Source: Trichomonas vaginalis G3
Taxonomy: Eukaryota > Parabasalia > Trichomonadida > Trichomonadidae
DNA: 64,000 nt
Direction of reading: 5' to 3'
NCBI RefSeq assembly: GCF_026262505.1
Contig: NC_067204.1
Span: forward strand, 19,797,976-19,861,975
In this document: positions 2,966-63,986 of the stretch, piece by piece
Layout of the letters: the number at the start of each line of letters is the position of its first letter
Numbering within the stretch: the stretch's first letter is position 1
The notes under the pieces: generated by a model
Told to the model about the DNA's origin: nothing
The model's input: only the letters and a program-made list of their open reading frames with translations
The model's database searches: none
Position numbers and translations under genes: made by a program

Positions 2966-4639
2966 ATGTCAAATGAAACAGCGTCTATGAGAGAAATACA
3001 ACACAACCGACAACTCATTGTGCAAGCTCTAAATAAGAACACAACAAACTTTTCAAACTATTCTAAGATATCTGAGTCATTGAAAGAAGGAAACTTAAAA
3101 CTGACATTAAACCCAATGACAGATGAGTTTCTGTTTCAAGACAATAAGAACCATACTGTCTGTATAAATCCAACAAAAGGAACTTTAAACGAGAAACCTA
3201 TAAATGAACTTCTTTTGAAAGCAGATGTTGACAACAAAGCTGACAAAGAATATGTAGACGATGCAATAGCAAAAGAAGAAGAAAGAGCTAACAATGCTTA
3301 TGCAACAAAAGAACATACTCATCCTGAACTAGCAGACAAAACATATGTTGACAATAAAATGTCAAGTGAAGTGACAAAAGCTGAAAACGAATATTCTAAA
3401 AAGACTCATACACATTATATTAACCAAATACCAAGTCTTAAGGAAACATTAGAGACAAAAGCAGATAAGACTCATACACATACCATTGCAAATATTACAA
3501 ACTTACAAGAAACCTTAAACAGTAAAAGTGACGTTGGACATACACATTCTATATCTGAAATAACAGACTTAAACGTTAGCCTTGAAAATAAAGCAGATAA
3601 GGAATATGTGAATGAAATATACCAAAGTTTGATAGGAACAACAAAAAATATTGAAACTATTGTTGGCGACTTTTCTGTCGATGAAGAAAATAAATATTTT
3701 AGATGGCAGTTTGTACATTCCTTAAGAAATGGTACACGGTATAAACTCATTCCGAAAAATAACAATGAAATGTATGTAAGCTATATAAAGAATGATGGTA
3801 CACAAGTTAAAGTTCCATTAGACAACAACTGTTACTTAAACTTATATGGAGACGAACAAAAGAAATATTTAAGAGTTTATGAAATGGCAGATATGACATT
3901 GCCTGACCCAGCTCCAATACCATATTATTATGACTATGGATATGACGGCGGAGCACAACATGCAGATGAACAAAAGTTAACATTATATTTAGATTATTAT
4001 AGATATAAAAGATATAATGCAATAGAAAAAACGAGAATAGTATATTATTATACAGATGACAGAAATAAATATTATAGTCAAGATTTTACCTACCCCGAAA
4101 ACATAAGATTATATTATAAAAAATATTCTGACACAAACCAGAAGAAACCTGAAATGGTTGCACTATATTTTAAGTTCAAAAGAGACAATCCTATATTATC
4201 TCATATGTTTGATTTAATGAACCCAGTAGGTTCTATTTATACATCTATGGATGTAAGAGGTCCTCAAGCAATGTTTGGTGTTGGTGCATGGGAACAAATA
4301 GTCGACAGGTTTTTGTATTGTGCAAACTCTTCAAAGGAAACAGGTGGAAGTAAAACGATTTCAGGTGAAAATTTACCTGCACACAGTCATTACGTAAATT
4401 TAAGTACATCTCAAGAAGGTTGGCATAAGCATAGATATTGGGATTGGACAGGAATGACAAAAGGTAAAGGATATGATGTTAAAGACGACGTTAAGTTTGC
4501 TATAAATTGTTACTGGGATGACACTTGGGGAGAAGGAGACCATACACATCGCGTTACAGGATATACGCAAACAACGGGACAAAGTAAAGAATACATGCCA
4601 CCTTACATGACAGTTTACGCATGGTATAGAATTGCTTAG
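2966..4639 (+). CDS. phage-type tail fibre / collar-domain protein, 557 aa
   Basis: The N-terminus (about 1-95) is conserved between copies. The next part has repeats of the phage-fibre type, with HTH plus ISEITDL or IANITNL and ETL/KAD units (about 110-220). A tyrosine-rich region then follows (about 300-400). The C-terminus is a tail-collar-like domain: PVGSIYTSM, W-Q-I-DRFL, a GGS turn, NLPAHSHY, a second HTH and a final MPPYMTVYAWYR. HxH motifs coordinate metal in phage short tail fibres (T4 gp12 family knowledge). Likely trimeric and used for attachment, by inference. Divergent from the 282-aa gene; its stop overlaps the integrase stop. Copy C has a 399-aa version with a different middle. 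Confidence 0.8.
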   Translation: MSNETASMREIQHNRQLIVQALNKNTTNFSNYSKISESLKEGNLKLTLNPMTDEFLFQDNKNHTVCINPTKGTLNEKPINELLLKADVDNKADKEYVDDAIAKEEERANNAYATKEHTHPELADKTYVDNKMSSEVTKAENEYSKKTHTHYINQIPSLKETLETKADKTHTHTIANITNLQETLNSKSDVGHTHSISEITDLNVSLENKADKEYVNEIYQSLIGTTKNIETIVGDFSVDEENKYFRWQFVHSLRNGTRYKLIPKNNNEMYVSYIKNDGTQVKVPLDNNCYLNLYGDEQKKYLRVYEMADMTLPDPAPIPYYYDYGYDGGAQHADEQKLTLYLDYYRYKRYNAIEKTRIVYYYTDDRNKYYSQDFTYPENIRLYYKKYSDTNQKKPEMVALYFKFKRDNPILSHMFDLMNPVGSIYTSMDVRGPQAMFGVGAWEQIVDRFLYCANSSKETGGSKTISGENLPAHSHYVNLSTSQEGWHKHRYWDWTGMTKGKGYDVKDDVKFAINCYWDDTWGEGDHTHRVTGYTQTTGQSKEYMPPYMTVYAWYRIA

Positions 4640-9059: not shown

Positions 9060-9333
9060 TGCTACTGTCAGTAAAAGTACTGCTACTGTCAGAAAAAGTA
9101 CTGCTACTGTCAGAAAAAGTACTGCTACTGTCAGAAAAAGTACTGCTACTGTCAGTAGCAGTACTGCTAGGAGCAGTAAAAGTACTGCTAGGAGCAGTAA
9201 AAAGGAAAATTTGAGAGGGTTTTCGACGATAAAGTACTGCTACTGTCAGAAAAAGTACTGCTACTGTCAGTAAAAGTACTGCTACTGTCAGAAAAAGTAC
9301 TGCTACTGTCAGTAGCAGTACTGCTAGTAGCAG
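9060..9333. repeat. 21-bp tandem repeats between divergent genes
   Basis: Units of 21 bp (TGCTACTGTCAGAAAAAGTAC) repeat on both sides of a short unique core (about 9200-9230). Several units carry AGTACTGCTACT facing its own complement, so hairpins are possible. The equivalent site in copies C and D has 22-bp units of different sequence sharing only CAGAAAAAGT. Confidence 0.85.
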
Positions 9334-9374: not shown

Positions 9375-9694
9375 ATGTCCCACGTCCCACCAACCGAGTC
9401 CAATCTCAATCCAGAAGAACCACAACAGTCTCCTCAGCAACCTCAGTTCCAGCAATTCCAATCTCAATCCAAATTACTACCAATTCCAATACAAATCGAA
9501 GAAGGTCTGAACCGCTTACGCAAAGAGTATGCTACAGCTCCAACCCTTGGTTGTTCCAGCAATTTCCACCTCAATCCAAATCGAAGAGAGACCAAGAGTT
9601 CGAAGAAGGTCTGAACCGTTTACGCAAAGAGTATGCCACAGCTCCAATTGAGAGAAAGTTGTTGCTAAATTCAGTAAAAATAATGTTTAGGTGA
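9375..9694 (+). pseudogene. Pro/Gln-rich protein gene, degenerate
   Basis: Begins MSHVPPTE like the intact gene at 40689 (MSDVPPTE) and keeps the Pro/Gln stretch and EEGLNRLRKEYATAP, which appears twice in different frames after indels. The C-terminal domain is missing. Confidence 0.65.
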
Positions 9695-10640
9695 AGAGGT
9701 GAGATTTCACCTCTTTTTTCACCTGTTTTTTCACCCTCTTGAATTTTCATGAATTTTCACGAATTTTATATATTAATGTTTTCGTTAAGCCACTTTGTGC
9801 CGTCAGTCAGTCAGTCAGTTTAGGAAAGACTTTAGAAAGTTGTTGGAAAATAAGTCCTGGGAAGAGTATTATAAGGCATTTTGTGAAGAATATAGCAACC
9901 GCCGGAATTCAGACGGTTGCTTTTTATACAAAATTCATGCGGGAAATTCTTGAGTTTTGGTTGAAAGAATACGGTGGAGCCAAAAGTGGCTCGACCTCAA
10001 AACAAGCATTTTATGAGCTTACAAAGGGTGTTATGAATGAATTCAAAGGTATTTACATACATCCTGACCTCGTTCATTTTGTTGCTGAATTCAGCAAAAA
10101 TAATGTTTAGGTGAAGAGGTGAGATTTCACCTGTTTTTTCACCTCTTTTTTCACCTCATGAATTTTCATGAATTTCTTCGTAAATGTTTTGTCAAAACTT
10201 CTTCGTAAATGTTTTGTCATGATTTCATCGTAATGAGCGTAAATCAGACAAAAATAATGTTTAGGTGAAGAGGTGAGATTTCACCTCTTTTTTCACCTCT
10301 TTTTTCACCTCATGAATTTTCATGAATTTTATATATTAATGTTTTGTCAAAACTTCTTCGTAAATGTTTTGTCATGATTTCATCGTAATGAGCGTAAATG
10401 ACCAAAAAATAATGTTTAGGTGAAGTGGTTAGATCTAACCTCTTTTTTCACCTGTTTTTTCACCCTCATGAATTTTCATGAATTTTATATATTAATGTTT
10501 TGTCAAAACTTCTTCGTAAATGTTTTGTCATGATTTCATCGTAATGAGCGTAAATGACCAAAAAATAATGTTTAGGTGAAGAGGTGAGATTTCACCTCTT
10601 TTTTCACCTCTTTTTTCACCTCAGTTATTTTCCCGAAATA
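9661..10640. repeat. upstream block of composite palindromes (GGTGA type)
   Basis: Five copies start near 9690, 10110, 10259, 10428 and 10573. Each has GGTGA twice, then TCACC two or three times separated by TCTTTTTT, and often ends with CATGAATTTTCATG. The outer side has GAATTCAGCAAAAATAATGTTTA or TCAGACAAAAATAATG. The 10428 copy has GGTTAG/CTAACC in its inner stem in place of GGTGA/TCACC. Between copies lies a repeated spacer with CGTAAATGTTTTGTCA and CATCGTAATGAGCG. They precede the 313-aa gene and are mirrored after it. Confidence 0.85.
9800..10110 (+). pseudogene. KilA-N gene remnant
   Basis: Matches the KilA-N gene at 63607-63986 from SLGKTLESCW onward but with indels. A later block ends IHPDLVHFVAEF, a typical KilA-N end. 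A (GTCA)n run at about 9804 sits where the N-terminal part is lost. Confidence 0.6.
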
Positions 10641-10698
10641 AAAAATAAAGTTAGTTTTATTTTTTATTTTATTTATTTTTTTATTTTGTATAAAAAAT
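10624..10698 (+). promoter_or_regulatory. accessory-cassette leader
   Basis: CCCGAAATAAAAAATAAAG, GTTAGTTTTA and a T/A-rich run ending TTTTGTATAAAAAAT directly before ATG. Nearly the same leader precedes the genes at 12297, 42055, 59574 (minus), 60838 (minus), 62091 and 63607, unlike the shorter T-tract promoters of core genes. Confidence 0.55.
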
Positions 10699-11640
10699 AT
10701 GATTTCAACAATCGGCACAACAACAGTTCAAACAACTACAGCACCAAACTCGTTAGTTATGAATCCAACATCTATGTTGGTAGAGATGAAAAGCTTCATT
10801 CCTTCTTCATATACTTTTGAAACAAAAATCCAGAAGATAAAGCAGGAATTGTTAACAAGTAATTTAGACTGTAGTGCGAAAAATGAAACAAATGAACAGT
10901 ATCTTTATGAAATGCAGGACATTATTGACCATTTACCCAAATTGCCTGAAATCCAACAACAAAAACTCACTATTCCTGAATTTGACGAAATTGAAGTCAA
11001 AGCAACTGACTCGGTAGAAATAAAGAAGTTCATACGAAAGGTAAATTATGAATTCCTTGGTTTTCATTGCAACCATAAAGTTATGGACAAAGATTGCGAC
11101 ATGTTATATAAGAACATCTCTGACCTTTACAAATCCGAAGAATTTAAGACCTACGACAACTTTGTTTCATTAGTTGCAAAATGTGTTTGGGAAATAAGAG
11201 ATAAAGATAGTAGGGGTAAGGTATGGAACGAACAAATAAGACCCGCTATGTTCGAGATGAAGAGAGCAATTGACGCCTTAGTTGTTTTAGCAGGTAAGGT
11301 TTCAGAATATAACGCAAAAATGAACCCGCAATGTTCTAAATGTAAAGCAGCAATTAGGAAATATAACTACTCCGTCAAAGAGATAGAAAGAATGCGAAAC
11401 GACTATGCAGACTTAAAGAAAGAAGCAGAAAAGCCAGCAGAAGATAAAATGGACATGTTAGAATTTCTGAACAAAAACTATCCAACAGCAGAAGATTTCC
11501 TTCTATCTGACGTCAAGAAGAAGTATAAAGAAACTTTCGGTATCGTTAAAACATTCGATGTACTGACAGAAGAAATAGAAGCTACGAAATTGTTTAGGAT
11601 TTCAAATATACATCATACAATTCATGTAAAACGCTTATAA
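10699..11640 (+). CDS. cassette protein, 313 aa, CxxC motif
   Basis: Unknown family. Helix-rich and charged. A CSKCKAAIRKYNYSVKEIERM segment lies at about residues 208-230 (one CxxC, so a partial metal site is possible), followed by a coiled-coil-like stretch. Homologues are at 42055-42969 (304 aa, intact) and 62091-63052 (broken). The gene is enclosed by inverted blocks of composite palindromes. The stop reads TAAA. Role unknown; the context of KilA-N and GIY-YIG cassettes hints at DNA-linked or regulatory work. Confidence 0.75.
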   Translation: MISTIGTTTVQTTTAPNSLVMNPTSMLVEMKSFIPSSYTFETKIQKIKQELLTSNLDCSAKNETNEQYLYEMQDIIDHLPKLPEIQQQKLTIPEFDEIEVKATDSVEIKKFIRKVNYEFLGFHCNHKVMDKDCDMLYKNISDLYKSEEFKTYDNFVSLVAKCVWEIRDKDSRGKVWNEQIRPAMFEMKRAIDALVVLAGKVSEYNAKMNPQCSKCKAAIRKYNYSVKEIERMRNDYADLKKEAEKPAEDKMDMLEFLNKNYPTAEDFLLSDVKKKYKETFGIVKTFDVLTEEIEATKLFRISNIHHTIHVKRL

Positions 11641-11645
11641 AATAA

Positions 11646-12130
11646 CAGGTGAAAAAAGAGGTGAAATCTCACCTCTTCACCTAAAATATATTTTTATTGA
11701 ATTCAGCAACAAAATTCTGAGTAAAATAATTTTTAGGGCTTGTGTCAAACCGTTGAGTTTTCACAAAATTTAAAAAATAACGTTTACCATGTGAAACGCT
11801 TATAAAATAACTGAGGTGAAAAAACAGGTGAAAAAAGAGGTGAAATCTCACCTCTTCACCTAAAATATATTTTTGGGTCATTTACGCTCATTACGAAGAA
11901 GTTTTGACAAAACATTTACGATGAAATCATGAAAATTCATGAGGTGAAAAATGAGGTGAAAAAAGAGGTGAAATCTCACCTCTTCACCTAAACATTATTT
12001 TTGGGTCATTTACGCTCATTACGAAGAAGTTTTGACAAAACATTTACGATGAAATCATGAAAATTCATGAGGTGAAAAATGAGGTGAAAAAAGAGGTGAA
12101 ATCTCACCTCTTCACCTAAACATTATTTTT
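11646..12130. repeat. downstream block of composite palindromes (GGTGA type)
   Basis: Four copies near 11649, 11814, 11940 and 12068 in the opposite orientation to the upstream block: GGTGAAAAAAGAGGTGA, AATC, then TCACCTCTTCACC. Flanked by TTGAATTCAGCAACAAA and by GTCATTTACGCTCATTACG. A CTCGG/CCGAG hairpin follows at about 12181-12195. Confidence 0.85.
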
Positions 12131-12296
12131 ATTGAATTCAGCAACAAATTTCATGAGTAAAATGGCATAAGATTGCTTCCCTCGGAAAACCGAGAGAAAG
12201 GGATTCCGTATGAAAATCATGAATTTCCTTAAGATAGAAAAAATAAAGTTAGTTTTTTATAAAATATTTTTTTTTATTTTGTATGTAAGAACAGAT

Positions 12297-12770
12297 ATGA
12301 CAAACATTGAGTTTGAAACAGTTAGAAAGATAGACAATGACACCAAATTGGTTAGAATAGGTGATTTAAACGTAAGATACTCAAAGAAATACAACAAATA
12401 TTCTTTGTCAGACATTTTCTCTCCATCTGGAAAGAGACCGAAGGACTGGGTTAGAATTGCTTCTACTCAGAAAATTTTGACAAGAAATCCTGAGCTTATG
12501 ATATCGGTAAGATTCTATGGAACTGCAGCATATCTCATCGACAAAAGTCTTATACCAATAGTTTTGTTATGGTTAGACCCAGTTGTTGGATATAACTTCA
12601 TAACATATGGTTCATTCGATACGGAACGTTGCAGTGAAGGCTTACTTTACATCGTTCAGAAACCGAAGGACTTCAATACAAAAAGATATAAGATAGGAAG
12701 AACATATAATATAACTCTAAGATATGACAGTACAGTCAATAGAATAGCAGAAATAAATGAGCAAGACTGA
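12297..12770 (+). pseudogene. KilA-N + GIY-YIG protein gene, truncated
   Basis: Starts MTNIEFETVRKIDND after the cassette leader and matches the 203-aa gene at 60838-61449 through its KilA-N domain and the first part of the GIY-YIG-like domain (LLYIVQKPKDF, YKIGRTYNI). It is cut off at the junction with inverted capsid-arm DNA, so the nuclease domain is incomplete. Confidence 0.75.
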
Positions 12771-32691: not shown

Positions 32692-33891
32692 ATGTCGAAA
32701 GAAACAGCGTCTATGAGAGAAATACAACACAACCGACAACTCATTTTGCAAGCTCTAAATAAGAACACAACAAACTTTTCAAACTATTCTAAGATATCTG
32801 AGTCATTGAAAGAAGGAAACTTAAAACTGACGATAAACCCAATGACAGATGAGTTTCTGTTTCAAGACAGTAAGAACCATACTGTTTGTATAAATCCAAC
32901 AAAAAGAACTTTAAACGAGAAACCTATAGATGAACTTCTTTTGAAAGCAGATATTGACAACAAAGCTGACAAAGAGTATGTTGACGATGAGTTAGCACGT
33001 ATGGCTAGTGCGTTAGATAAGAAGGCAGATAAGGAATATGTGGATGAAAAAGACAATGAAATTAAAGAAAGGGTTGAATGGTACCATGAACGGACTTCAA
33101 AGATTTTAAAAACTAAAGCCGATACAGGATGGGTTTCAGGGTGTTTAGACCTTAAAGCCGACAAAGAAACTGTAGATATGTTGACACAAACGGTTTCAAG
33201 TCATACCAGAGGTTTAATGGAAGATGGACAACAGTTGAAAGAGCTTGAGAAAGGTGTTACAGAGTTAAGGAATACAAAAGCAGACTCGACATGGATAGCT
33301 GGATATGTAGATGCAACAAAAGAGTATATTTTCAGATGGACAGAAGGAACATACGCACAAAAATATCATAGACATAGCATCTCTGACGTAAATGAACTTG
33401 AAGAAAAGTTATATAAAAAAGCTGACAAAACAGAGCTTCAAACATTAAAGACAGAAATACTTCAAACACTATATCCTATAGGTTCTATTTATACGTCAAT
33501 GAACTCTACCAGACCAGAAGTAGTACTTGGTCTCGGAACTTGGACTCAAATAGTCGACAGGTTTTTGTATTGTGCAAACTCTTCAAAGGAAACAGGCGGA
33601 AGTAAAACGATTTCAGGTGAAAACTTACCTGCGCACAGTCACTACGTAGATTTAACTACAGCTGAAGCAGGTTGGCATAAGCATAGATATTGGGATTGGA
33701 CAGGAATGACAAAAGGTAAAGGATATGATGTTAAAGACGACGTTAAGTTTGCTATAAATTGTTACTGGGATGACACTCAGGGAGGAGGAAGCCATACACA
33801 TCGCATTACAGGATATTCGGAAACAACGGGACAGAGTAAAGACTACATGCCACCTTACATGACAGTTTACGCATGGTATAGAAATGCTTAG
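32692..33891 (+). CDS. phage-type tail fibre / collar-domain protein, 399 aa
   Basis: N-terminal block (1-95) and collar end (from about 255: YPIGSIYTSM, IVDRFLYCANSS, NLPAHSHY, MPPYMTVYAWYRNA) match the 557-aa protein. The middle is unrelated to it: heptad-like helices with KADKEYVDE and TVSSHTRGL, one HRHSISDVNELEEKL unit, and no Tyr-rich domain. Such shaft exchange is common in phage fibres (family knowledge). Two HxH pairs are kept. The gene's stop overlaps the integrase stop by a few bases. Confidence 0.85.
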   Translation: MSKETASMREIQHNRQLILQALNKNTTNFSNYSKISESLKEGNLKLTINPMTDEFLFQDSKNHTVCINPTKRTLNEKPIDELLLKADIDNKADKEYVDDELARMASALDKKADKEYVDEKDNEIKERVEWYHERTSKILKTKADTGWVSGCLDLKADKETVDMLTQTVSSHTRGLMEDGQQLKELEKGVTELRNTKADSTWIAGYVDATKEYIFRWTEGTYAQKYHRHSISDVNELEEKLYKKADKTELQTLKTEILQTLYPIGSIYTSMNSTRPEVVLGLGTWTQIVDRFLYCANSSKETGGSKTISGENLPAHSHYVDLTTAEAGWHKHRYWDWTGMTKGKGYDVKDDVKFAINCYWDDTQGGGSHTHRITGYSETTGQSKDYMPPYMTVYAWYRNA

Positions 33892-36078: not shown

Positions 36079-38232
36079 ATGCCCCCATATAGAATCGATA
36101 GAAAATCTGCTAGAATAAAAGCAGAGTTGCAAAGATATGGTTGGAGAGTTTCGAAGAATTTTAAATATAGGAAGGGAAGACCCATAAAAGTCTATGACAA
36201 ATTGTCTGGTCTTCGCTACGAAATGGATTTGGAAACAGCACGTGCCAATTATCCAAACAGACTAGAGAGGTTAGAAGAAGAACGTCTTATGGACATGCCT
36301 TTCGATGTTAGTGAGCCTCAAGTTGAAGGACACGACGGCTTTGCCAGATTCTACTGGAAACATGACGAACAATTGCATCCTTTGAGAAGGAAAAAAGGAA
36401 AGGGTGAAGACGCACATGCTCCCATGGAAAGAACAAGATATGCATATGAGAAGTATCGTGAAGTTAGAAGTAAAATTACATCTGGGCGAACCTTTACAGT
36501 AAATTTTGACGAAGGAAAGAACAAAGAAGGCTTCATGGGTGTACTTGCTGCCATACAAGACGGAAATAAGAAAGGATACAATCTCAGACTAACCGTAACA
36601 GATTTAGATGGTCACATTTACTATGCAAATGGCAATGAACAAACAGCTGCAAAACTTCTTGACGCTTTCAAGACTACAAAGAGAGAACAAATGGTTGACT
36701 CCGACTCAGACATTTTGAATGCAATTGAAGGAATTGCAAGTGTCAAGTTCGAATGGTACCAACCTAACCCTCAAGCAGTCAGACAACATGCTGGATACTT
36801 CCCGTTCATAAATAAGTCTGACATTGACTTGACAAGGTATGGAATTTACAATTCAATTGAAAAAATTGTCAATGAACCTTGTATTCTTACATGTCTCAGG
36901 AACTCTGGTCTTGTTACAGATGAGAAGATGAAGTATCTTGAGTCATGTGTGAAGACAAGGTACATTCTCAGAGGTCAATTGGCAAAAATTGCACCGTTGG
37001 CAAATGTCAATATCCGAGTCAACATACCTACAGCTAAAGGTTCTTCACACGACGACTATGTTGTTGACAAAGACTTACCATGGTTGAAGATTGCAATTGT
37101 CCACAACCACTTCATGTTGAACGAAAGTCTTACAAACCCATTGTTCGGAAAAGGCAAGTGCAACATTGTCAGAGCTGTAAACATTCTTTTCGAGAAAGGT
37201 TTGTTGGAACCAATTCCAGATGACAAGCTGACAGAAACTTTTGTACCAAAAGACGAAACAAACTTTTCACTGTTAGCAAGACCAAAAGTTGTTCCAGACA
37301 AAGTTATAGCACAAAAGAAGTACACAATTCCACAAGGAGTTGGATTGTTCGGATACCAACCTGAACCAGAAGAACTTCCAATGAGGTTGCAAGAACTTCA
37401 AGATGCTATAAACAAACTTCCATTGAGACATCCAATTGACGTCAAATTGTATTGGAGAGCATCTGAGTTAGGTCAGAAGGTTTTATATGAAACAGGTTGC
37501 TTCGACGATGTTTATGAGATAACAGGAGAAGTTTCTCAGAAGATAAGAGACTCACTTGAATTTCCAAAAACTGGTCCGATTGGTTGCGACAAGTTCGACT
37601 CAGATGAAAAGATATACTATGTCGACCTTAACGCTGCGTACATGAGGTTCGTCCAATATATTCCAACTGGAATTCCAAACGAAGATGGTGAGTTCCCAGG
37701 AAGGAACTATACAGTTGGAAAAGTCATACAACAACTGTATGATATTAGGAAAGCTTCAAACCCCAAACTTGCAATGACACTCAAATTGCTTATGAATTCG
37801 ACATGGGGATATTCCATAAAGAAACCTCAAGAGATGAAGAGTAAACATTATGAGAAGGTCGACAACTTTGTTGAAAGGTTTTCTCCTTTTGTTTTGAAGT
37901 ACGAATTCACTCAAGGTCAAGGTGGCTTAGTAACCACAGTAAAACCTATTGTCGAACATTGGTCTTATCCTCAGTTCGCAAAAGCAGTCCTTGACAACTA
38001 CAACAAATTCTTCTCGGAAGTCAAATCCAAAGTGAAGGTTTACTATGAGAACATTGACGCACTCATGACGAACGAAGAAGGATACAACAAACTCATTGAA
38101 ATGGGTTTAGTCGGTGAGAAGATGGGTCAATTCAAATTGGACAAAATTTTCACCGAAGTTCATGTCCTCTCCAAGCGTAAGTACTGGGGCATACTTGAAG
38201 ACGGCACAGAAATAAAACATTGCATGAAATAA
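36079..38232 (+). CDS. polB: protein-primed family B DNA polymerase, 717 aa
   Basis: Replicates the element from a protein primer at the termini (Maverick/phi29-type knowledge). Motif A is YYVDLNAAYM (Asp516), motif B KLLMNSTWGY (Lys569, Asn573), motif C YYENIDALM (Asn658, Asp660), followed by KRKYWG (Lys701, Tyr702). Motif C has Asn where most enzymes have the first Asp; the second Asp, the metal ligand, is kept. The A-to-B distance is only about 53 residues. The N-terminus is basic (first 45 aa). I could not place the three exonuclease motifs. The protein is shorter than usual for Maverick polymerases. TTTTTTATTTTTATAAAA precedes the ATG. Confidence 0.85.
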   Translation: MPPYRIDRKSARIKAELQRYGWRVSKNFKYRKGRPIKVYDKLSGLRYEMDLETARANYPNRLERLEEERLMDMPFDVSEPQVEGHDGFARFYWKHDEQLHPLRRKKGKGEDAHAPMERTRYAYEKYREVRSKITSGRTFTVNFDEGKNKEGFMGVLAAIQDGNKKGYNLRLTVTDLDGHIYYANGNEQTAAKLLDAFKTTKREQMVDSDSDILNAIEGIASVKFEWYQPNPQAVRQHAGYFPFINKSDIDLTRYGIYNSIEKIVNEPCILTCLRNSGLVTDEKMKYLESCVKTRYILRGQLAKIAPLANVNIRVNIPTAKGSSHDDYVVDKDLPWLKIAIVHNHFMLNESLTNPLFGKGKCNIVRAVNILFEKGLLEPIPDDKLTETFVPKDETNFSLLARPKVVPDKVIAQKKYTIPQGVGLFGYQPEPEELPMRLQELQDAINKLPLRHPIDVKLYWRASELGQKVLYETGCFDDVYEITGEVSQKIRDSLEFPKTGPIGCDKFDSDEKIYYVDLNAAYMRFVQYIPTGIPNEDGEFPGRNYTVGKVIQQLYDIRKASNPKLAMTLKLLMNSTWGYSIKKPQEMKSKHYEKVDNFVERFSPFVLKYEFTQGQGGLVTTVKPIVEHWSYPQFAKAVLDNYNKFFSEVKSKVKVYYENIDALMTNEEGYNKLIEMGLVGEKMGQFKLDKIFTEVHVLSKRKYWGILEDGTEIKHCMK

Positions 38233-41798: not shown

Positions 41799-41995
41799 TG
41801 TTGCTGAATTCGGCAAAAATATAATTTAGGGTAGATGGGTATATCTAACCTCTTTTCTAACCTCTTTTCTACCCTCATGAATTTGTCATGAGTTTTATAC
41901 AGAATTCGGCAAAAATATATTTTAGGGTAGAAGGGTATATCTACCCCGTTTTCTACCCCGTTTTCTACCCTCATGAATTTGTCATGAGTTTTCCC
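41799..41995. repeat. composite palindromes upstream of 304-aa cassette (GGGTA type)
   Basis: Two copies (about 41827 and 41922): GGGTAGAAGGGTA, then TATC, TACCCC and further TACCC units. The first copy mixes GGGTA left arms with TAACC right arms. Outer side GCTGAATTCGGCAAAAATAT; inner side CATGAATTTGTCATGAG. Then the accessory leader. Confidence 0.85.
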
Positions 41996-42054
41996 GAAAT
42001 AAAAAATAAAGTTGGTTTTTTTAAAAAAATATTTTTTATTTTTATTGTAAGAAC

Positions 42055-42969
42055 ATGTTAGCAACAACAGCACCAAACTCGTTAGTCATGAACCCAACTT
42101 CAATGTTAGTAGAAATGAAAAGCTTCATTCCTTCTTCATATACTTTTGAGACAGAAATCCAGAAGATAAAGCAAGAACTTTTAACAAGTAATTTAGACTG
42201 TAGTGCGAAAGATGAAACAAATGAACAGTATCTTTATGAAATGCAGGATATTATTGACCATTTACCCAAATTGCCTGAAATCCAACAACAAAAACTCACT
42301 ATTCCAGAATTCGATGAAATAGAAGTCAAAGCAACTGACTCAGTAGAAATAAAGAAGTTCATACGAAAGGTAAACTATGAGTTTCTAGGATTTCATTGCA
42401 ACCATAAGGTTATGGACAAAGATTGCGACATGGTATATAAGAATGTTTCTGACCTTTACAAAACCCGGGAGTTTAAGACCTACGACAACTTTGTTTCGTT
42501 AGTTGCAAAATGTGTATGGCAGATAAGAGATAAAGATAGAAGAGGTAAGGTATGGAATGAACAGATAAAACCAGCAACTTTTGAGTTAAAGAAAACCATT
42601 GACGCTTTAGTTGTTTTAGCAGGTAAGGTTTCAGAATATAACGCAAAAATGAACCCGCAATGTTCTAAATGTAAAGCAGCAATAAGAAAATATAACTACT
42701 CCGTCAAAGAGATAGAACGTATGCGAAACGACTATGCTGACTTAAAGAAAGAAGCAGAAAAGCCAGCAGAAGATAAAATGGACATGTTAGAATTTCTGAA
42801 CAAAAACTATCCAACAGCAGAAGATTTCCTTCTATCTGACGTCAAGAAGAAGTATAAAGAAACCTTCGGCATAGTTAAAACATTCGATGTACTAAAAGAA
42901 GAAATAGAAGCTACAAAACTGTTTAGAGTCTCACGAATTCATAACGTTTACCATGTAAAACGCTTATAA
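42055..42969 (+). CDS. cassette protein, 304 aa, CxxC motif
   Basis: Homologue of 10699-11640 lacking nine N-terminal residues, with the same CSKCKAA segment and about 90 percent visible identity. Enclosed by inverted composite palindromes of the GGGTA type rather than the GGTGA type of copy A. Leader with GTAAGAAC before ATG. Function unknown. Confidence 0.75.
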   Translation: MLATTAPNSLVMNPTSMLVEMKSFIPSSYTFETEIQKIKQELLTSNLDCSAKDETNEQYLYEMQDIIDHLPKLPEIQQQKLTIPEFDEIEVKATDSVEIKKFIRKVNYEFLGFHCNHKVMDKDCDMVYKNVSDLYKTREFKTYDNFVSLVAKCVWQIRDKDRRGKVWNEQIKPATFELKKTIDALVVLAGKVSEYNAKMNPQCSKCKAAIRKYNYSVKEIERMRNDYADLKKEAEKPAEDKMDMLEFLNKNYPTAEDFLLSDVKKKYKETFGIVKTFDVLKEEIEATKLFRVSRIHNVYHVKRL

Positions 42970-43175
42970 AATAACTGGGGTAGAAAAGAGGTTAGAAAAC
43001 AGGTTATATCTAACCTTCTACCCTAAAATATATTTTTATTGAATTCAGCAACAAAATTCTGAGTAAAATGACATATGGAACACATACTTTTTTCAGTAAG
43101 GACATATGGGGTAGAAATGAGGGTAGAAAACGGGGTAGATATACCCTTCTACCCTAAAATATATTTTTGCTGAAA
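42970..43175. repeat. composite palindromes downstream of 304-aa cassette (GGGTA type)
   Basis: Two copies near 42978 and 43108 in opposite orientation to the upstream block. The first has GGGTA outer and GGTTA inner arms (matching TAACC and TACCC). Followed by TTGAATTCAGCAACAAA. A GACCG/CGGTC hairpin is at about 43207-43225. Confidence 0.8.
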
Positions 43176-60479: not shown

Positions 60480-60836
60480 AGGAAATTCATGAATTTCATA
60501 GAGTTTTATGCAAGACCGAAAAAAGTCGGTCTAGAGAAATTTCACTGTTTTCATAGAGTTTTGGCGACTAAGTTTTTTTACCTACTCGCTGTTCTTCATG
60601 ATTTTCATAGAGTTTTGGCGACCCAGATAAAAGTCGGTCTCGCTGTTCTTCACTGTTTTCGTACGGAATCTCTTCTCTCGGTTTTACATGGTAAGCAATC
60701 TTATGCCATTTTACTCAGATTTTTGTGCTGAATTCAGCAAAAATAATGTTTAGGTGAAGAGGTGAGATCTCACCTGTTTTTTCACCTAATTTTTCACCTC
60801 TTTTTTTCACAACCGTTTTACATGGTAAACGTTATT
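60480..60836. repeat. KilA-N-derived repeats plus composite palindrome (GGTGA type)
   Basis: 60490-60660 holds partial copies of a 50-60 bp coding segment of the neighbouring KilA-N gene (CATAGAGTTTTGGCGAC, then TACCTACTCGCTGTTCTTCA), without an open frame. A hairpin GACCG/CGGTC lies at about 60515-60531. At 60728-60805 a composite palindrome with GCTGAATTCAGC and GGTGA/TCACC arms follows. Confidence 0.75.
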
Positions 60837-60837
60837 T

Positions 60838-61449
60838 TTACATGTATTTTTCAGCAACTTCGTCAAATAATTTTATAGCTTTATCTATCTCATCTACTTC
60901 AAACGTTTCTTTACCTTTTATGGGAGCACCATACATTTTCTCAAACTTTTCAAGTAGTTCTGTTTCAGCAGCTCTCATATCGTTAACGAACACAACCTTG
61001 ACTCTATTGACTGTACTGTCATATCTTTGAGTTATATTATATGTTCTTCCTATCTTATATCTCTTTGTGTTGAAGTCCTTCGGTTTCTGAACGATGTAAA
61101 GTAAGCCTTCACTGCAACGTTCCGTATCGAATGAACCATATGTTATGAAGTTATATCCAACAACTGGGTCTAACCATAACAAAATTATTGGTATAAGACT
61201 TTTGTCTATAAGATATGCTGTAGTTCCATGAAATGCTACTGATATCATAAGCTCAGGATTTCTTGTCAAAATTTTCTGAGTAGAAGCATTTCTAACCCAG
61301 TCCTTCGGTTTCTTTCCAGATGGAGATATAATGTCTGACAAAGAATATTTGTTGTATTTCTTTGAGTATCTTACGTTTAAATCACCTATTCTAACCACTT
61401 TGGTGTCATTGTCTATCTTTCTAACTGTTTCAAACTCAATGTTTGTCAT
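60838..61449 (-). CDS. KilA-N + GIY-YIG (T5orf172-like) protein, 203 aa
   Basis: Residues about 1-105 are a KilA-N domain (KYNKYSLSDIISPSGKKPKDW, PELMISVAFHGTTAYLIDK, LWLDPVVGYNFI). Residues about 118-195 are a GIY-YIG-like domain of the T5orf172/MUG113 kind (GLLYIVQKPKDF, RYKIGRTYNITQRYD, ETELLEKFEKMYG, GKETFEV). DNA recognition with a possible nuclease fits homing or regulation. Truncated homologue at 12297 in copy A. Palindrome blocks of different types lie on its two sides. Confidence 0.85.
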   Translation of the reverse strand: MTNIEFETVRKIDNDTKVVRIGDLNVRYSKKYNKYSLSDIISPSGKKPKDWVRNASTQKILTRNPELMISVAFHGTTAYLIDKSLIPIILLWLDPVVGYNFITYGSFDTERCSEGLLYIVQKPKDFNTKRYKIGRTYNITQRYDSTVNRVKVVFVNDMRAAETELLEKFEKMYGAPIKGKETFEVDEIDKAIKLFDEVAEKYM

Positions 61450-61529
61450 TTCTGTTCTTACATACAAAATAAAAAAATAAATAAAAATAAAACTAACTTT
61501 ATTTTTTCTGTCTTAAGGAAATTCATGAA

Positions 61530-61620
61530 AATTCATGAGGTTAGAAAACGTGTTAGAAAACGTGTTAGATCTAACATTCTAACATAAATTATATTTTTAC
61601 TGAATTCAATAAAAATAAAT
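61530..61620. repeat. composite palindrome, GTTAG type
   Basis: About 61538-61590: GTTAGAAAACGTGTTAG with GATC centre and CTAACATTCTAACA, the same architecture as the GGTGA type but a different word. Outer side TACTGAATTCAATAAAAATA. Pairs with 61945-62012 around the 78-aa gene. Confidence 0.85.
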
Positions 61621-61627
61621 GGTTCAT

Positions 61628-61864
61628 TTACTCACAATATTTTTTTACAAAACGACCCCAAACTTTTAACTTCTTTTCTGCAGCTTCAAATGCTATCTTA
61701 GCGAGTTCATATTCTCTAAATTCTCTCTTTAAATCTTCTTGTTCCCATTGGTCTAGTTCGTATGGAGAATCTCTATAACCATAATATATCTCACGTTCAT
61801 GTTCTAATTGTTTTTCACACATTTTTCCAACTTCTTCTTCGAACAAAGGTTTAGCATTCTCCAC
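61628..61864 (-). CDS. small charged helical protein, 78 aa
   Basis: Glu/Lys/Tyr-rich helices (KQLEHEREIYYGYRDSPYELDQ, REYELAKIAFEAAEKKLKVW). The frame seems to continue upstream (LDEEELEDTVENAK) to an ATG at 61914 in another frame, so a one-base loss near 61890 is possible. Sole gene between two GTTAG-type palindromes. Function unknown. Confidence 0.5.
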   Translation of the reverse strand: MENAKPLFEEEVGKMCEKQLEHEREIYYGYRDSPYELDQWEQEDLKREFREYELAKIAFEAAEKKLKVWGRFVKKYCE

Positions 61865-61914
61865 TGTATCTTCGAGTTCTTCTTCATCTAATTTCCTTTG
61901 TCAAGATTCTTCAT

Positions 61915-62035
61915 CGTAATTGAGGTAAATCAGACAAAAAAATAAGTTTATGTTAGAATGTTAGATCTAACACGTTTTCTAACACCGTTTTTCTAACACG
62001 TTTTTCTACCCTCATGAATTTTCATGAATTTCCCG
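61915..62035. repeat. composite palindrome, GTTAG type, inverted partner
   Basis: GTTAGAATGTTAGATCTAAC then CACGTTTTCTAACACCG and more CTAACA/TACCC units, ending CATGAATTTTCATGAATTT. The last arm reads TACCC, a mix with the GGGTA type. Followed by the leader of the next cassette. Confidence 0.85.
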
Positions 62036-62090
62036 AAATAAAAAATAAAGTTAGTTTTATTTTTTTTATTTTTTTATTTGTATAAAAGAT

Positions 62091-63052
62091 ATGATTTCAA
62101 CAATCGGCACACAAACAAAAATTCAAACAACAGCACCCAAACTCTTTAGTCATGAATCCTACGTCAATGTTAGTAGAGAATGAAAAGCTTATTCCTTCTT
62201 CATATACTTTTGAAACAGAAATCCAGAAGATAAAGCAGGAACTTTTAACAAGTAATTTAGACTGTAGGGCGAAAGATGAAACAAATGAACAGTATCTTTA
62301 TGAAATGCAGACATTATTGACCATTTGCCTAAATACCTGAACATCCAACACAAAAAAACTCACATATTCCTGATATTCACGAATTGAAGCAAAGCAACTG
62401 ACTCATTAAAATAAAGAAGTTCATAACGAAAGGTAGAAACTATGAGTTTCTGGATTTCAGTTGCAAACCATAAGGTTATGGACAAGATTGCGACGATGGT
62501 ATATAAAAATGTTTCTGACATATTATAAATCTGAAGAATTTAAGACCTACGACAACTTTGTTTTCGTTAGTTGCTGAATTGTTATGGCAGATAAGAGATA
62601 AAGATAAAGATGTAAGGTATGGAATGAACAAATAAAACCAACTGCTTCAGATTTAAAGAAAACCATTGACGCTTAGTTGTTTTAGCAGGTAAGGTTTCAG
62701 AATATAACGCAAAAATGAACCCGCAATGTTCAAAATGTAAGGCAGCATAGAGGAATATAAACTTACTCCGTCCCTCAAAGAGATAGAAAGAATGAGAGAA
62801 ACGACTATGCAGATTTAAAGAAAAGAAGTGAGAAAAGCGCGAGCAGAAGATAAAATGGACATGTTAGCATTTCTGAACAGACAAAATTATCCAACTGCTG
62901 ACGATGTTGCTTCTATCTTGACGTCAAAGAAGAAATATAAAGAAACTTTCGGTATCGTTAAAACTGTTGACATACTGACAGAGAAATAGAAGCTACGAAA
63001 TGTTTAGAATTTCAAATATACATCGTACAATTCATGTTAAAACGCTTTATAA
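62091..63052 (+). pseudogene. 313-aa cassette gene, heavily frameshifted
   Basis: Homologue of 10699-11640 with more than ten single-base indels. CSKCKAA region readable. Downstream block of GGTGA palindromes matches copy A. Confidence 0.8.
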
Positions 63053-63545
63053 AATAACAGGTGAAAAAACCGGGTGAAAAAAACAGGTGAAGATCTCACC
63101 TCTTCACCTAAAATATATTTTTGTCTGATTTACGCTCATTACGATGAAGAATTTTGACAAAACATGTACGAAGAAGTTTTGACAAAACATTTACGATGAA
63201 ATCATGACCAAAACATTTACATGAAATTCATGGAAAATTCAAGAGGTGAAAAAACGGGGTGAAAAAACAGGTGAATCTCACCTCTTCACCTAAAACTTTA
63301 TTTTGTCTTCTGATTTACGCTCATTACGAAGAATTTGACCAAACATTGTACAGAGAAGTTTGACAAACATGTACTGAAGAAGTCTGACAGAAACATTGAC
63401 GTATGGAAATCTATGACAAAACATTTACGATGAAATCATGAAAATTCAAGAGGGAAAAAAACGGGTGAAAAAAGGTGAGATCTCACCTCTTCACCTAAAC
63501 TTATTTTTAGCTGAAAATGACCAAATTCATGAATTTCCTTAAGAC
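63053..63545. repeat. composite palindromes downstream (GGTGA type), copy D
   Basis: Three copies near 63058, 63244 and 63455 with decayed spacers (ACGAAGAAGTTTTGACAAAA and TTTACGCTCATTACG). Same orientation as 11646-12130. Confidence 0.8.
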
Positions 63546-63606: not shown

Positions 63607-63986
63607 ATGGTCAGTCGAAGCAAAAAAACGTTCACGAACAAATCTAAGTGGCAGAAACATTCACAAAAGGTACTTATAACGGTATTGAAGTCTTACGTAG
63701 AGACAAGGATAGTTACTTAATGCAACAAATATGTGTCAGCAGTTTAGGAAAGACTTTAGAAAGTTGTTGGAAAAATAAGTCCTGGGAAGAGTATTATAAG
63801 GCATTTTGTGAAGAATATAGCAACGCCGGAATCAGACGGTTGCTTTTTATCAAAATTCATGCCGGAATTCCTGATGAAATCAACAGGTTAGAGGAAACGT
63901 ATGTAGACCCAAGACTTATAAACTATATAGCTAGTGTGGCTTCTCCAAAATATTGCATAGCAGTTGGAAAAATTAATGGACCATAG
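63607..63986 (+). pseudogene. KilA-N gene, early frameshift
   Basis: The leader ATG at 63607 is in one frame (MVSRSKKTF). The KilA-N domain is in another from 63648: GTYNGIEVLRRDKDSYLMQQI, GKTLESCWKNKSWEEYY, EETYVDPRLINYIASVASPK. One indel near 63640 separates them. Only the KilA-N domain is present before the stop. The remnant at 9800 is related. Confidence 0.7.

Follow-up and report, generated by a model that had tools for sequence, protein, structure and literature searches.

In T4-type phages, promoter-stem-loop cassettes (Arbiol et al. 2010) reportedly place stem-loops between small accessory genes and would mediate the shuffling of gene modules; each unit is said to carry an early promoter and to point one way. 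Among bacteria, REP/RAYT units have inverted hairpins around a resident gene, and integron cassettes form gene arrays with hairpin-like sites. We know of no account of how Mavericks exchange genes. According to PMC8263062, Odn is a chimeric T5orf172 nuclease which needs the iterons of a satellite's replication origin, and which is linked there to module swapping. According to PMC7845603, Mavericks make up about 73 Mb of the Trichomonas vaginalis genome, and KilA-N genes as well as subclass-specific ORF orders have already been published for them. No description of the composite palindromes reported here was found in the literature searched, which was mainly openly accessible, nor in the available portions of PMC10120064 and PMC12589397.

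Judged by analogy, the closest working parallels are the T4 stem-loop cassettes and the iteron-dependent T5orf172 nuclease. With the former, the Trichomonas sites share a hairpin between exchanged modules (based on four folded sites and on breaks in gene order at site arrays, in loci whose choice is biased), but their host is a virus-like element of a eukaryote, they face one another across a gene, and their words have 12-bp spacing and covarying types. Similarly to Odn, T5orf172 may be joined to a DNA-binding domain and the repeats resemble Odn's semi-palindromic target; however, the DNA-binding domain of Odn is RepA_N-like, not KilA-N, and the Trichomonas sites, at which cutting and binding are putative, flank genes and are not in a known origin. 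MITEs and other transposons with terminal inverted repeats likewise have such repeats on both sides of one gene and occur as gene-less copies, whereas the Trichomonas sites have no target duplications, are many per side, enclose different genes and show reversals at one slot; in place of one recognisable transposase in the full copies, KilA-N or T5orf172 occupies two of the pairs. From REP/RAYT units and integrons they differ in site structure, and Pfam scans of 27 ORFs of the window revealed neither a RAYT-like transposase nor a tyrosine recombinase, and no integron-type combination of tyrosine integrase and attC-type sites, the only integrase being of the rve type.

Composite palindromes and genes of the window

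The window, i.e. the whole analysed stretch of 64,000 nucleotides of T. vaginalis G3, carries elements which are probably Mavericks/Polintons, with D5-type primase domains over the Pfam cut-off and an rve integrase at 32.3 bits (cut-off 32.6); T5orf172 and HNH genes are present in the same elements. Each site is a composite palindrome of about 63 bp, in which an AT-rich outer edge is followed by two forward words, then by a GAT centre and, as a rule, by three reverse words. A profile derived from 106 copies of the site bears out the initial annotation of five sites before and four behind the 313-aa gene of copy A, the two groups being in opposite orientation (Table 1). This annotation overlooked, however, a KilA-N gene fragment between the first two + sites, which is chimeric, with an allele B part at 9816-9944 and an allele A part at 9937-10092. 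The outer GCTGAATTCAGC-like and inner CATGAATTTTCATG sequences that it had assigned to each site are common neighbours but vary between sites, and its extension of the scheme to copies C and D was right in that both are bounded, although copy C has GGGTA/GGTTA words and not GGTGA. Copy C (41816-43167) encloses the same gene family as copy A, DUF3839, and copy D (60740-63507) consists of two adjacent facing pairs, one with T5orf172 and the other with a frame-broken DUF3839. The gene adjoining the - sites of copy A is of the same family as the T5orf172 gene of copy D, and no site was found on its far side.

Table 1. Positions of the sites and genes of copies A, C and D within the window
Feature	Position	Strand	Evidence
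Copy A, composite palindrome, + site 1	9677..9760	+	profile E 6.5e-21
Copy A, chimeric KilA-N gene fragment between + sites 1 and 2	9816..10092	+	tblastn
Copy A, + site 2	10097..10178	+	profile E 3e-22
Copy A, + site 3	10251..10332	+	profile E 4.9e-22
Copy A, + site 4, inner word GGTTA	10406..10488	+	profile E 6.1e-19; word type
Copy A, + site 5	10562..10638	+	profile E 1.4e-19
Copy A, DUF3839 gene, 313 aa	10699..11640	+	ORF; Pfam PF12943 E 3.2e-156
Copy A, - site 1, overlaps 3' end of DUF3839 ORF	11621..11694	-	profile E 3.2e-15
Copy A, - site 2	11788..11873	-	profile E 2.2e-20
Copy A, - site 3	11919..12001	-	profile E 1.5e-21
Copy A, - site 4	12047..12129	-	profile E 1.6e-21
T5orf172-family gene adjoining - sites	12210..12770	+	Pfam T5orf172 18.5 bits, cut-off 20
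Copy C, two + sites, GGGTA words	41816..41997	+	profile, word type
Copy C, DUF3839 gene, 304 aa	42055..42969	+	ORF; tblastn
Copy C, two - sites, GGGTA/GGTTA words	42952..43167	-	profile, word type
Copy D, + site, GGTGA words	60740..60824	+	profile, word type
Copy D, T5orf172 (GIY-YIG) gene, 203 aa	60838..61449	-	Pfam T5orf172 34.9 bits
Copy D, - site, TGTTA words	61515..61597	-	profile, word type
Copy D, C-terminal KilA-N gene fragment	61631..61894	-	tblastn
Copy D, + site, TGTTA words	61940..62037	+	profile, word type
Copy D, frame-broken DUF3839, reversed relative to T5orf172 and long KilA-N	62137..63047	+	tblastn pieces; gene order
Copy D, three - sites (63037, 63217, 63428)	63037..63507	-	profile
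KilA-N gene part, allele B, cut by window end	63651..63974	+	tblastn

The 313-aa protein was assigned to DUF3839 in the Pfam scan, and the best 120 of its 280 matches are all named T. vaginalis G3. Copies are very many in the genome, where 150 of 3,365 first-look candidates were scored and all exceeded the cut-off; the same search yielded none in 14 control genomes, and no relative was found in viral contigs. Searches of Pfam, PHROGs and PDB sequences recovered neither a recognised relative of known function nor similarity to transposases. DUF3839 proteins appear in some public records under the name 'organellar and viral DNA polymerase type B'. A 717-aa ORF of the window (36079-38232), which has no Pfam match, contains what we take to be polymerase-like motifs; since this ORF looks more polymerase-like, the name may be misplaced on DUF3839.

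The KilA-N proteins of loci L078 (2006-2671) and L080 (1996-2658) have about 40 N-terminal and 95 C-terminal residues in common, while the central DNA-binding domains are about 31% identical; the difference is, judged from the two sequences, a domain swap inside one KilA-N gene. Allele A lies beside GGTGA sites in six of six loci (L061, L063, L078 and L081-L083), a count that leaves out five chimeric fragments (window copy A, L048, L049, L059, L060), two of which have a GGGTA/GGTTA site alongside. The neighbours of allele B are GGTGA sites (L084, window copy D), GGGTA sites (L085) or sites whose type is different or mixed (L080, L040, L041); in L086 it has none. A strict match of allele to word type thus fails, as allele B is located between GGTGA sites in L084, and the link between the two is suggestive at most. 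The T5orf172 protein of copy D scores over the cut-off for that domain and under it for KilA-N (16.2 bits).

Abundance, words and orientation of the sites

The palindrome-bounded pattern is real and genome-wide. An exact 24-base core occurs 904 and 978 times on the two strands (1,882 copies in 180.85 Mb, 86 contigs) and its reversed pattern 0 and 0 times, so that the core is commoner than expected by chance; no exact core was found in viral or prokaryote genome contigs. Three related palindromes, GGTGAGATCTCACC (4103 copies), GGTTAGATCTAACC (3504) and TGTTAGATCTAACA (2989), add up to 10,596 copies genome-wide. The mixed form of GGTGAGATCTCACC and GGTTAGATCTAACC was found 270 and 237 times, whereas about 4,000 copies would be expected by our own arithmetic if the arms were independent, a comparison in which the copies share ancestry and are hence no independent events. 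The reversed controls of all three palindromes and of the mixed form gave 0 throughout the genome.

Word parsing covered 133 unique copies, of which 111 have three reverse words, 17 have another number and five have a degenerate forward word. The three reverse words are spaced by exactly 12 bp in 98 of the 111. Four word types occur among the sites, and the first reverse word is of the same type as the inner forward word in 102 of 111 (expected 60) and still of one type with it in 24 of the 33 in which the inner word is not GGTGA. Words which do not need to pair match as well (W1 and the first reverse word in 95 of 111, W2 and the last in 87 of 111), and where a site has two word types (n=15) the paired words match in 10 and 9; thus, part of the covariation is uniformity of the entire site, and covariation specific to pairing is weaker than it appeared. 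After removal of one unparsed pair, 30 of 37 cassettes have the same inner word type in both arms, compared to a shuffled mean of 22.7, with two of 5000 shuffles as high. The GATC centre was also considered as a methylation target and dropped, as GATT stands at this place in 1,882 sites and as a nanopore study reports no 6mA enrichment in TEs (PMC12695648).

The initial annotation had asked whether the site always lies in inverted pairs around single genes. Among 100 listed places of the 24-base core, all on contig C1, which group into 42 clusters when gaps of at most 3 kb are allowed (27 of these contain two or more sites), 58 neighbouring pairs were oriented +- in 25, ++ in 14, -- in 19 and -+ in no case, so none was divergent. 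The +- distances were 245-421 bp in six pairs and 1053-1505 bp in 19, 18 of which contain DUF3839; L054 departs from this in having an additional site as well as a methyltransferase-like fragment. In a second survey of 49 non-overlapping sequences with all word types pooled, neighbours were ++ in 47, +- in 45, -- in 58 and divergent in only two of 152. Facing pairs do lie around single genes, but nearly always around DUF3839 (36 of the 45, in addition to one KilA-N, one T5orf172 and seven without a gene), and neighbours of the same orientation are many. KilA-N genes are flanked by two like-oriented sites more often than by facing ones, and + and - sites pivot on DUF3839 even with other genes in between.

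A search for empty cassettes had been suggested as well. The seven gene-less pairs exist, but at least five come from one intergenic slot of which no filled version was seen. Five keep the same 38-bp piece of a KilA-N gene (100% in three, 97.4% in two), and a methyltransferase-like or DUF4106-type neighbour gene is found in five of the seven, pointing to one slot and perhaps one event.

The sites are confined to the accessory-gene zone of Mavericks. Among the 42 clusters, 30 loci were tested; 27 of them show similarity to a protein that the window or another locus encodes, a count which includes matches to DUF3839 itself and is not fully independent; L030, L057 and L058 gave no match to these proteins. 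Sites within 250 bp of the 77 other Maverick ORFs of at least 130 aa in nine large sequences were found downstream in eight cases and upstream in no case.

Gene order at the sites

Gene order was collinear in 519 of 1452 comparisons across 65 site arrays (902 not, 31 inverted) and in 5400 of 6086 at random positions off the sites, most loci having been chosen via sites or DUF3839, which biases them toward breaks at sites. In the nine large sequences, 190 of 627 comparisons were collinear at site arrays versus 500 of 661 at gene gaps without sites, where breaks are also frequent (161 of 661). Free of site bias is a set of 14 loci picked by the integrase 3' end alone, one being the query's own locus. 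The gene behind the integrase is DUF3839 in 11 of these, KilA-N followed by DUF3839 in L078, KilA-N between a + and a - site in L080, and neither in L077; with matches of 99-100%, the 11 loci seem to belong to one Maverick lineage.

Where integrase, KilA-N and DUF3839 follow each other in this order, DUF3839 has the same sense in L061, L063, L078 and L084 but the opposite one in L082 and L083, L081 being outside this count as it ends before DUF3839. Same-sense and reversed loci are alike up to the site and change at its inner edge. Similarly, DUF3839 of copy D is reversed relative to T5orf172 and long KilA-N, which lie on the same strand as DUF3839 in the 17 other loci showing both, by our own count. 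L063 contains three tandem KilA-N units (99.3-99.8% alike), and the match listing shows tandem KilA-N matches in three more regions, two spaced 841 bp and one with four at about 912 bp.

Possible roles of the palindromes

These data lend partial support to the proposal of the initial annotation that genes are swapped through the palindromes: single genes between facing sites, a slot with varying gene content, reversed and tandem copies, pairs without a gene and the lack of target duplications all agree with it, so that the pattern was recognised correctly and its meaning only in part. On balance, we lean towards the view that the palindromes serve an accessory-gene zone of T. vaginalis Mavericks as recombination boundaries, recombination being visible here by its outcome in sequence. 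In this zone composite palindromes stand between DUF3839, a short KilA-N and a T5orf172 gene, + and - sites lying on opposite sides of DUF3839. Exchange between facing sites would flip a cassette, exchange between same-facing sites would duplicate or remove it, and exchange between elements would place a different gene in a slot. The sites themselves would mediate these exchanges, which might be plain homologous recombination or be started by a break at the palindrome, with resident T5orf172 or HNH nucleases as candidate cutters. Flips, duplications, slot exchange and absent target duplications would be expected from recombination between sites. As multi-copy repeats provide homology in any case, the sites may be passive.

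The chief rival, which is compatible with recombination boundaries, regards rearrangement as a by-product of repeated homology and the sites as putative binding arrays, i.e. operators or replication iterons whose words would be bound by KilA-N or T5orf172 proteins controlling flanking genes or replication. The exact word spacing, the four word types with their agreement between cassette arms, the KilA-N and T5orf172 genes in the same zone, the exchanged DNA-binding domain and a phage T5orf172 nuclease dependent on iterons (PMC8263062) make this a tentative but serious possibility, while allele B between GGTGA sites in L084 speaks against strict pairing and the lack of upstream sites at the 77 other ORFs argues against a general regulation of the element. 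It is rather unlikely, although conceivable, that cassettes home, in that resident KilA-N/T5orf172 nucleases with exchangeable DNA-binding domains would cut particular word types, repair would copy, flip and swap cassettes, and conflict between Maverick lineages would have driven the word types apart as specificity classes. If, alternatively, DUF3839 were a transposase, the sites would be its terminal inverted repeats and the gene-less pairs its MITEs. The frequent enclosure of the very numerous DUF3839 copies and the pivoting of the sites on this gene would fit, but we consider this improbable, as ordinary MITE termini with target duplications, which the initial annotation had named as evidence against cassettes, were not observed. 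None of 44 pairs has a target duplication, the longest shared flank word being 4.55 versus 4.58 in shuffles on the inner and 4.82 versus 4.82 on the outer side; abutting duplications of at least 3 bp occur in 0 of 44 pairs, and since shuffles also gave 0.0, the shared-word test is the informative one. Thus, the sites are not ordinary MITE or transposon ends. In addition, KilA-N (L080) and T5orf172 (copy D) are enclosed without DUF3839, gutting of a KilA-N unit, not of a DUF3839 one, accounts for five of the seven pairs without a gene, and DUF3839 has no transposase similarity in the databases searched. Still less probable is a role as hairpin terminators of transcription or as signals for the 3' ends of Maverick genes. 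Four window sites do fold as hairpins (z -2.4 to -5.0, DNA parameters) and a - site overlaps the DUF3839 stop region; however, sites also stand upstream of genes in mirror orientation, and the downstream count of eight in 77 sets back a role as general Maverick terminators.

Swaps, flips and duplications of genes at the palindromes suggest that the gene content of these elements is reshuffled at these points. With over 12,000 copies of a boundary element that follows a strict orientation rule, gene exchange in Mavericks becomes directly testable: slot content, orientation and word type can be read once other strains have been assembled from long reads. Where nuclease and DNA-binding genes have exchanged their binding domains and adjoin covarying sites, they would also be a test case for conflict between mobile elements.

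Several minor observations were made. Half sites (L059:3871, L077, L038, L039, L041) are few and mixed, and a break exactly at the palindrome centre, or a hotspot there, is thus not claimed. Those in L038, L039, L041 and L077 continue into a dispersed sequence of another kind (TCACCAGGTC...CATGACATTT-like), which makes a second type of junction that recurs. In L081 and L082 a short insert, made up of two mini-hairpins, separates the two forward words of the site behind the KilA-N gene, and similar mini-hairpins occur without a composite site in L086. The reverse strand of L068, one of the 11 integrase-chosen loci with DUF3839, encodes DUF3839 to about residue 242 and then, in frame, T5orf172, possibly a new fusion. 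Phage tail-repeat and baseplate Gp10 C-terminal domains were detected by Pfam in the Mavericks at window positions 2966-4639 and 32692-33891. A tandem 21-bp palindromic repeat with about ten copies in register is located at 9060-9330 of the window, just outside the first + site, and sites at exact 128-bp steps in G000 (C1:2025596-2026364, seven matches) and in L032 represent a local expansion of one unit.
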